Shown here: one piece after another, positions 36,488-37,105 of the stretch | Layout of the letters: each line of letters opens with the position of its first letter | How positions within the stretch are numbered: the stretch's first letter is position 1 | Origin: Pontibacter korlensis | GTDB taxonomy: Bacteria; Bacteroidota; Bacteroidia; Cytophagales; Hymenobacteraceae | Reading direction: 5' to 3' | Assembly (NCBI RefSeq): GCF_000973725.1 | Contig: NZ_CP009621.1 | Span: 1,183,501-1,247,500 of the forward strand | DNA length: 64,000 bases | Made by a program: the position numbers and the translations under genes | The notes under the pieces: model-generated | The model's input: the letters and a program-made list of their open reading frames with translations, nothing else | What the model was told of the DNA's origin: nothing | Database searches by the model: none

Positions 36488-36491
36488 AGTA

Positions 36492-36499
36492 CAAAACTA
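36492..36499 (-). promoter_or_regulatory. Candidate -7 box next to the HDAC-like start codon
   Basis: On the minus strand TAGTTTTG fits TAnnTTTG and is followed by TACT and then ATG. Transcription would begin at or just beyond the start codon. Confidence 0.4.
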
Positions 36500-36606
36500 A
36501 CAACAATAGGGCTATTAGAGTTTAGCTTCTCGCTTCTTACAAACAGCACAACGCGTTGCACCACCCATACAAGTTTAGTACAATTAACACTACTAACTCA
36601 CAATAA

Positions 36607-36809
36607 CGTGGATAACTTCTGAAACCATTTCAGACATGCCTAGCACAAGCAGTTTTCTTCAACTTCTAGGCAGCTAATTGTGGATAACTTTGTTGATTAC
36701 ACATGTTTATCCACCTTTTCTTGTTAATTCATTGTGAACAAGCTCCTGATTTCGTAATAATCCAGTGAAATTTTGCCTAACTGTGGAAATTGTCCACAGT
36801 TAGGCAAAA
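36607..36809. other. DnaA-box cluster: candidate replication origin or DnaA-titration site
   Basis: This region between divergent genes holds a perfect DnaA box TTATCCACA (minus strand, 36679-36687), one-mismatch boxes at 36607-36615 (TTATCCACG on the minus strand), 36707-36715 (TTATCCACC) and 36790-36798 (TTGTCCACA), and a weaker TTGTTCACA on the minus strand at 36733-36741. It is followed by a strong inverted repeat and A+T-rich DNA. Flanking genes on the left mostly point toward the site, the wrong way for a typical origin, so a datA-like titration locus is an alternative. Confidence 0.55.
36771..36809. repeat. 17-bp perfect inverted repeat containing TGTGGA/TCCACA
   Basis: TTTTGCCTAACTGTGGA and its exact complement flank 5 bases (AATTG). 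Each arm ends in a half DnaA-box. No gene is transcribed into it from either side, because the neighbours diverge, so a terminator role is unlikely. Confidence 0.8.
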
Positions 36810-37105
36810 GGATTAATGGTTTACTTCTACCTACTGTAGCACTTCTTCTATTCATCTTAAAACACAATTAGCTCCTTCTTCATTCAGTGTTAAAACGGAG
36901 GTATCTGCTCAAAAATATTTTTTGCCCAAAACTACTGTACACAGAATATATTTACTTTACTTTTCCTACTGTTCACCCAGATAATAAGCTGGCACACACA
37001 AACTTTTATACCAGCAGCTACATAACCTCAGCCTTAAAATAAAGTATAAAACATATGAACAGCTCTTCACATTACAGAAGAGCATCAGTAAGCAAATCAG
37101 AAACT
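36810..37105. other. A+T-rich intergenic DNA beside the DnaA-box cluster
   Basis: No gene is seen. The stretch at 36910-36965 is mostly A and T (AAAAATATTTTTTG, then AATATATTTACTTTAC) and could act as a DNA-unwinding element if this is an origin, or as promoter DNA for the 37106 gene. Confidence 0.35.

Follow-up and report, generated by a model that had tools for sequence, protein, structure and literature searches.

A conserved off-origin array of DnaA boxes in Pontibacter korlensis and its possible role in control of the replication initiator

Binding sites for the replication initiator DnaA (DnaA boxes) form clusters at bacterial chromosomal origins (oriC) and also elsewhere on the chromosome; in Escherichia coli such off-origin clusters include datA and DARS1, both intergenic, and DARS2, and E. 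coli DnaA additionally acts as a transcription factor at several promoters. DARS1 and DARS2 share a core in which a box pointing right is followed by two pointing left, at steps of 14 bp and 12 bp. According to PMC5742627, the essential boxes of datA all point in one direction and a site for IHF is part of the locus; DARS2 is described as lying upstream of mutH (PMC11317965), and datA, DARS1 and DARS2 are reported to keep conserved relative distances from oriC (PMC4585315). A Bacillus subtilis strain without six DnaA-box clusters (DBCs) initiated early, an effect that was strong only with all six gone (PMC5295017), and titration by boxes that are dense near the E. coli origin has been argued in PMC12371093. 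In vivo, E. coli DnaA is reported to bind mostly to double boxes, whose members stand 2 or 3 bp apart; in the purH pair, one box matches the consensus at 7/9 positions (PMC11317965). Here we describe an off-origin box array in a window of 64,000 nucleotides from Pontibacter korlensis (Bacteroidota), comprising positions 1,183,501-1,247,500 of its single 5,462,537-base contig (G000:C1). The site occupies positions 36607-36809 of the window, to which all coordinates below 64,000 refer (1,220,107-1,220,309 of the contig), and lies in a divergent intergenic region of 567 bp (36488-37054) beside a histone-deacetylase-like gene. Among the titles listed by a literature search, none dealt with off-origin DnaA clusters in Bacteroidota.

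Our preferred interpretation, to which we assign a probability of roughly 0.47, is that of an off-origin DnaA-binding array whose effect would be to withdraw the initiator or modulate its activity; binding of DnaA to the array is very probable, and an effect on initiation is a weaker suggestion. The array spans 36669-36715 and consists of boxes reading left, left, left (weak) and right, at spacings of 10, 12 and 16 bp. Its anchor is a box of perfect consensus, TTATCCACA on the minus strand (36679-36687), and 3 bp from it stands a weak tandem box (36691-36699, minus strand), which matches at 7/9 positions and reads TGTTGATTA on the plus strand. Together these two constitute a double DnaA box, that is, two boxes in the same direction 2 or 3 bp apart, of which one may match at 7/9. 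On the left, 10 bp from the anchor, the position of a further minus-strand box (36669-36677) is degenerate in P. korlensis; on the right, an inverted box with one mismatch, TTATCCACC (36707-36715, plus strand), lies 28 bp from the perfect box, start to start. Beyond it, TGTTAA at +43 relative to the anchor (36722-36727, minus strand) is possibly a degenerate box.

Between 36607 and 36809 there are one perfect box and three boxes with one mismatch, and this number within 203 bp was reached in 0/2000 dinucleotide shuffles of the 567-bp intergenic region, the largest number being 2. The initial annotation had recorded a perfect box, which is the anchor described above, and four near matches, of which three are the one-mismatch boxes and the fourth can only be a two-mismatch box. 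The whole window contains 25 boxes with no more than one mismatch, where 13.9 would be expected, and 0/100 shuffles reach 25. Single boxes are common in the genome, since exact TTATCCACA occurs 51 times.

Conservation of the array is strict within the genus. A DNA query of 581 bp covering the region found matches in 19/24 relatives of the same genus and in 0/14 of the same order. Anchored on the deacetylase gene, the inverted 28-bp pair, with at most one mismatch per box, is present in 22/24 Pontibacter loci (own locus included), the remaining two (L068 and L075) having only one box of the pair at this threshold, and in 0/6 deacetylase loci from other genera of the family. We then considered the best 80 of 521 deacetylase-gene loci (hereafter the named loci), the closest of which are from Pontibacter species; they comprise 29 from Pontibacter, one from Botryobacter and 50 others. 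The core pair, with at most one mismatch in 16 positions, lies upstream of the deacetylase gene in all 30 Pontibacter and Botryobacter loci and in none of the 50 others, where the best candidate had 5 mismatches and one locus (L215) had only 296 bp of upstream sequence; a tandem box with at most one mismatch precedes the pair by 10 bp in 21 of the 30. On these 30 loci, the set where it had originally been noticed, the spacing (10,12,16) ranks 1/728. In an order-wide search the 28-bp pair (at most one mismatch) was found at one place per genome in 6/6 Pontibacter, own included, and in 40/241 genomes overall, among them 12/19 of genus g19; the pattern of the pair read backwards occurs in 15/241 genomes of the order, none of them in this family. 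Of the features that the initial annotation wished to see conserved in close relatives, the box array is thus strongly kept and the inverted repeat discussed below is not.

The positions under constraint were resolved by an ungapped alignment of 31 rows, made up of the window and the 30 loci, with the best 28-bp pair as anchor; conservation of the two anchor boxes is therefore partly built in, and that of columns between and outside them is not by construction. The alignment reads TGTGGATAA at -10, moderately conserved, its columns -3 and -2 carrying 1.79 and 2.00 bits, and TGTGGATAA at 0, where 8/9 columns are invariant. C and T at +9 and +10 are invariant or nearly so, and are followed by TGTTgATta at +12, in which TGTT is invariant (31/31), by TTATCCAC at +28, with 7/8 columns invariant, and by TGTtaA at +43, in which TGT is invariant. 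Mean information is 1.46 bits per column from 0 to +36, compared with 0.33 and 0.44 in the flanks.

Compared with the described systems, the array resembles datA in being an intergenic, non-coding box cluster outside but near oriC, 0.29 Mb from the putative oriC identified below as against ~0.47 Mb for datA (from the positions given in PMC5742627); it differs in being only 47 bp long and in having one of its invariant boxes inverted, a departure from the single direction by which that source defines the essential datA boxes. With DARS it shares two tandem boxes at 12 bp, which stand at +14 and +26 of the DARS core, but there the opposing box precedes the pair, toward which it points, at 14 bp, whereas in the array it is on the other side and points away, giving the order left, left (12), right (16); membership of DARS was rejected on this difference in box order. 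In consisting of several boxes, intergenic and outside oriC, it agrees with the Bacillus DBCs. Among the double boxes described for E. coli (purH, polA, mutH), that of purH has the same composition, a consensus and a 7/9 box in the same direction across a 3-bp gap (PMC11317965), which the array extends with another tandem box and one inverted box at a fixed distance. We file the array neither as datA nor as DARS, and hypothesize by analogy that it works as they do. Off-origin DnaA clusters are already known; this one stands out by its own geometry and strict conservation.

A sister array stands upstream of mraZ, which we take to be the first gene of the division cluster. In 16/16 Pontibacter loci, own included, its four boxes all have at most one mismatch and read left, left, left, right, 106-146 bp before the mraZ match; in P. 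korlensis it occupies 5,160,039-5,160,085 of the contig (L150:1540-1586). Box order and the 38 bp from first to last start are the same as in the deacetylase array, while the spacings are 9, 13 and 16 rather than 10, 12 and 16, and the mraZ array is the nearer of the two to its gene. Three mraZ loci of other families had two scattered boxes in one case and none in two. The arrangement suggests DnaA control of the division-gene cluster, and we infer that one preferred DnaA complex may be used at two conserved loci. Elsewhere in the genome, six boxes with at most one mismatch fall within 200 bp upstream of a sigma-factor-like gene (contig positions 2,012,521-2,012,717; L152:1422-1618), a cluster present in 5/16 Pontibacter loci.

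The likely start of chromosome replication was sought through GC skew, computed for twenty 20-kb samples genome-wide and for a contiguous stretch of 260 kb. Among the samples, six with starts from 1 to 1,365,000 have negative skew, as have four with starts from 4,368,000 to 5,187,000; the other ten, with starts from 1,638,000 to 4,095,000, have positive skew. The cumulative minimum in the contiguous stretch falls at 1,502,101. Within the window all four 16-kb blocks have negative skew, as do the 31 overlapping 4-kb segments save two that are positive (between 24 and 30 kb) and one that is zero. Near the minimum are a methyltransferase-like gene, mnmG (our identification from its translation), a gene with Ig-like domains (PF13205), a transposase gene, an A+T-rich gap and a Na/H-exchanger gene (PF00999). 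The gap lies 10 kb from the minimum, and its last part, from 1,511,595 on, contains 14 boxes at no more than two mismatches, including three at a single mismatch. A query of 1,510,683-1,512,123 found DNA matches in 24/24 genomes of the genus and 1/14 others of the order; in one of these genomes (G009) the best matches represent an insertion-sequence end, and another match also covers the gap. In genus g19, of the same family, dense DnaA-box clusters have as neighbours genes that, by their translations, are similar to the same Ig-like and small conserved genes. Because the skew minimum is nearby, the box-rich gap is conserved and it is syntenic with the g19 box cluster, we call the gap beside the exchanger gene (~1.51 Mb) the putative oriC. 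The transposase gene (1,509,459-1,510,682) is situated between the Ig-like-domain gene and this gap, and two further copies of the sequence at its end, at 86-87%, are present in the genome. The dnaA gene is at 2,268,774, ~757 kb from the putative oriC, and its 3.5-kb locus (2,267,274-2,270,759) has no box with at most one mismatch, hence no sign there of dnaA autoregulation by close boxes. Four perfect DnaA boxes lie close together in family f9 (L099:1500-1558, L100:1479-1536), between genes that we read from their translations as dipeptidase-like and transporter-like; this compact cluster may be either an origin or an off-origin site.

These data bear on the proposal of the initial annotation that the site is itself the chromosomal origin. 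A box cluster in an A+T-rich intergenic region, kept in close relatives, is what would be expected of oriC, but the skew minimum, by which the annotation proposed to check it, is 282 kb away, and a different box-rich gap beside that minimum is matched in all 24 genomes of the genus and shares its surroundings with the dense cluster of a sister genus. In two species the skew to the left and to the right of the site is negative. The second of these (G021) has negative skew at 4,192,000 and positive skew at 4,280,000, flanking the putative oriC at 4,236,898; its copy of the site (3,904,284) and the samples on either side of that copy all have negative skew. An origin at the site is accordingly rejected by sampled and contiguous skew in P. 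korlensis and by sampled skew in G021, and we consider it extremely improbable; the annotation's own caution, that plus-strand genes to the left would run toward an origin placed here, was well founded. Only slightly less improbable is that the site serves as a backup origin, is a relict one, or is a fragment that remains from an ancestral oriC. This reading draws on the putative Pontibacter oriC, which has boxes at the same 10 and 28 bp spacing in 20/24 loci (L120-L128, L130-L143 and L145, leaving out L129, an insertion-sequence match, and L144, from another family), a pattern that was written after seeing those loci. This spacing is not special within oriC, however, where on average (10,22) is the better fit; the rank of the four-box array is only 31/728 in the oriC loci and 10/728 in g19, where L103 was left out of spacing comparisons as unlike the oriC gap and counts of the 28-bp pair are biased because the loci were found by that same pattern; and there is no change of skew at the site. 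We do not claim the array as a copy of oriC.

A much closer rival, though still the less probable reading, is that DnaA serves here as a transcription factor, the array bringing the deacetylase gene into step with the replication cycle, or doing so for the divergent beta-barrel gene. The histone-deacetylase-like gene (PF00850; 35585-36487, minus strand) adjoins the array in all loci having this gene here, its start being 166-256 bp from the anchor box in 30/30 of the Pontibacter and Botryobacter loci; the outer-membrane beta-barrel gene (PF13568; 37055-37735, plus strand) is the usual right-hand neighbour, a beta-barrel-like open reading frame being the first listed in 27/30. The two genes diverge, as initially annotated. 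A role in transcription is favoured by the upstream position of the array, by the mraZ array with its like order, length and placement, and by the E. coli double boxes reported upstream of genes such as purH and polA (PMC11317965). Weighing the other way, the distance to the deacetylase start varies over the range given, and related genes in the 50 other loci have no array. The array also persists where the beta-barrel neighbour was not seen, one locus (L180) having another gene at the right and another (L009) a different start there. A TAnnTTTG motif, presumably the Bacteroidota promoter element, occurs at the deacetylase start in 24 of the same 30 loci, and the array does not overlap it. The boxes might alternatively serve another protein sharing a TTATCCAC-like site, such as a nucleoid- or chromosome-organizing factor or a local regulator. 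Conserved positions beyond the boxes (C at +9, T at +10 and TGT at +43) would accord with this, but the box sequence, the 3-bp tandem gap and the weak second box match the usage of E. coli DnaA as given in PMC11317965, and we regard such a protein as improbable. Apart from these arguments, in one genome of another genus (G041:C1:379,291-380,189) the deacetylase gene matches as two separate segments, covering residues 1-119 and 114-300, as a frameshift would give.

We return to action on the initiator pool, by titration or by a change of nucleotide state, as the reading that we tentatively favour at the deacetylase locus over control of transcription. Since the site is ~0.3 Mb from the likely start of copying, it probably helps to control DnaA and is not itself an origin. 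DnaA would bind cooperatively to the double box, in which a perfect and a 7/9 box stand 3 bp apart in the same direction, and further DnaA would occupy the tandem box upstream and, 28 bp away, the inverted one, so that a fixed complex of ~47 bp would form. The array would thereby hold DnaA, or alter its activity, away from oriC; being ~0.3 Mb from oriC, its copy number would double soon after initiation, and the two effects together would damp or reset initiation, which is the role of datA, DARS and the Bacillus clusters, here with a geometry of its own. The DnaA of this genome carries GGRDHSTV, which we take to be its box-recognition motif, and a PF00308 search of the genome returned one protein only, so that no Hda-like inactivator was seen. 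Several observations weigh against an action on the initiator pool. The array is never found apart from the deacetylase gene in the 30 loci, as a promoter element would behave; its sister stands directly before mraZ, in keeping with a transcriptional role; and neither the E. coli DARS core order nor the single direction of datA is preserved. A single array may also do little, given that the effect in B. subtilis, as described in PMC5295017, was strong only with six clusters gone. Nor is there a sign of selection on position. Where the site, or its gene, and the putative oriC are on one contig, their distance is 246-376 kb in 14 genomes (291 kb in P. korlensis; G008 measured via the deacetylase gene), with a mean of 301 kb and a coefficient of variation (CV) of 0.119, no more constant than uvrB (CV 0.125, 10/14 genomes) or bamA (CV 0.070, 7/14), own genome included, and selected gene dosage through a conserved distance to oriC is unsupported. 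By our reading of the strands, the site is on either chromosome arm in different species. The preference over transcription control is slight because the mraZ array argues the other way; as regards the initial annotation, its suggestion of a DnaA-titration site survives in the form of an off-origin DnaA reading, with the conserved box array as its unit in place of the inverted repeat.

That inverted repeat, annotated as a perfect 17-bp repeat around 5 bases, is indeed present at 36771-36809 (arms 36771-36787 and 36793-36809), and 0/300 dinucleotide shuffles of the intergenic region produced its equal, the longest repeat being 10. It is particular to this genome: the 17-mer was not found elsewhere in it with up to 2 mismatches, and the loci of 19 relatives have no counterpart, only unrelated repeats of 11-12 nt in two (L014 and L019). 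We reject it as a functional unit on account of its single place in the genome and its absence from these loci. Nor is a terminator supported, as by our reading no T-run follows the repeat on either strand, which agrees with the annotation's view that it is not explained as one. Within the repeat lies an outer one-mismatch DnaA box, TTGTCCACA (36790-36798, plus strand), and at its place six named relatives (L155-L160) have a single TTATCCACA; a second outer box with one mismatch, TTATCCACG (36607-36615, minus strand), has counterparts at a similar place in many relatives. The A+T-richness noted to the right is real (66.5% in that flank, against 52.3% in the window) but not confined to that side, the left flank having 61.9% and the cluster 63.6%. 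The sequence of the A+T-rich flank beside the boxes, where an origin would have its conserved unwinding element, is little conserved among relatives.

The timing of chromosome replication in Bacteroidota seems to be little described. A short array of fixed spacing, at one place per genome in the six Pontibacter genomes searched for it, is well defined enough to be deleted, moved or assayed for DnaA binding, and the nearby putative oriC can be tested together with it. The mraZ array suggests that this complex may also link the division genes to the initiator. More speculatively, and with the odds against it, a lineage-specific four-box DnaA complex (10-12-16 or 9-13-16) could couple control of initiation to division and possibly to protein acetylation. 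If this were true, the same complex would stand before a lysine-deacetylase-like gene and before mraZ in a genome in which no Hda-like protein was seen, a kind of replication-timing system in Bacteroidota for which we know of no described counterpart.
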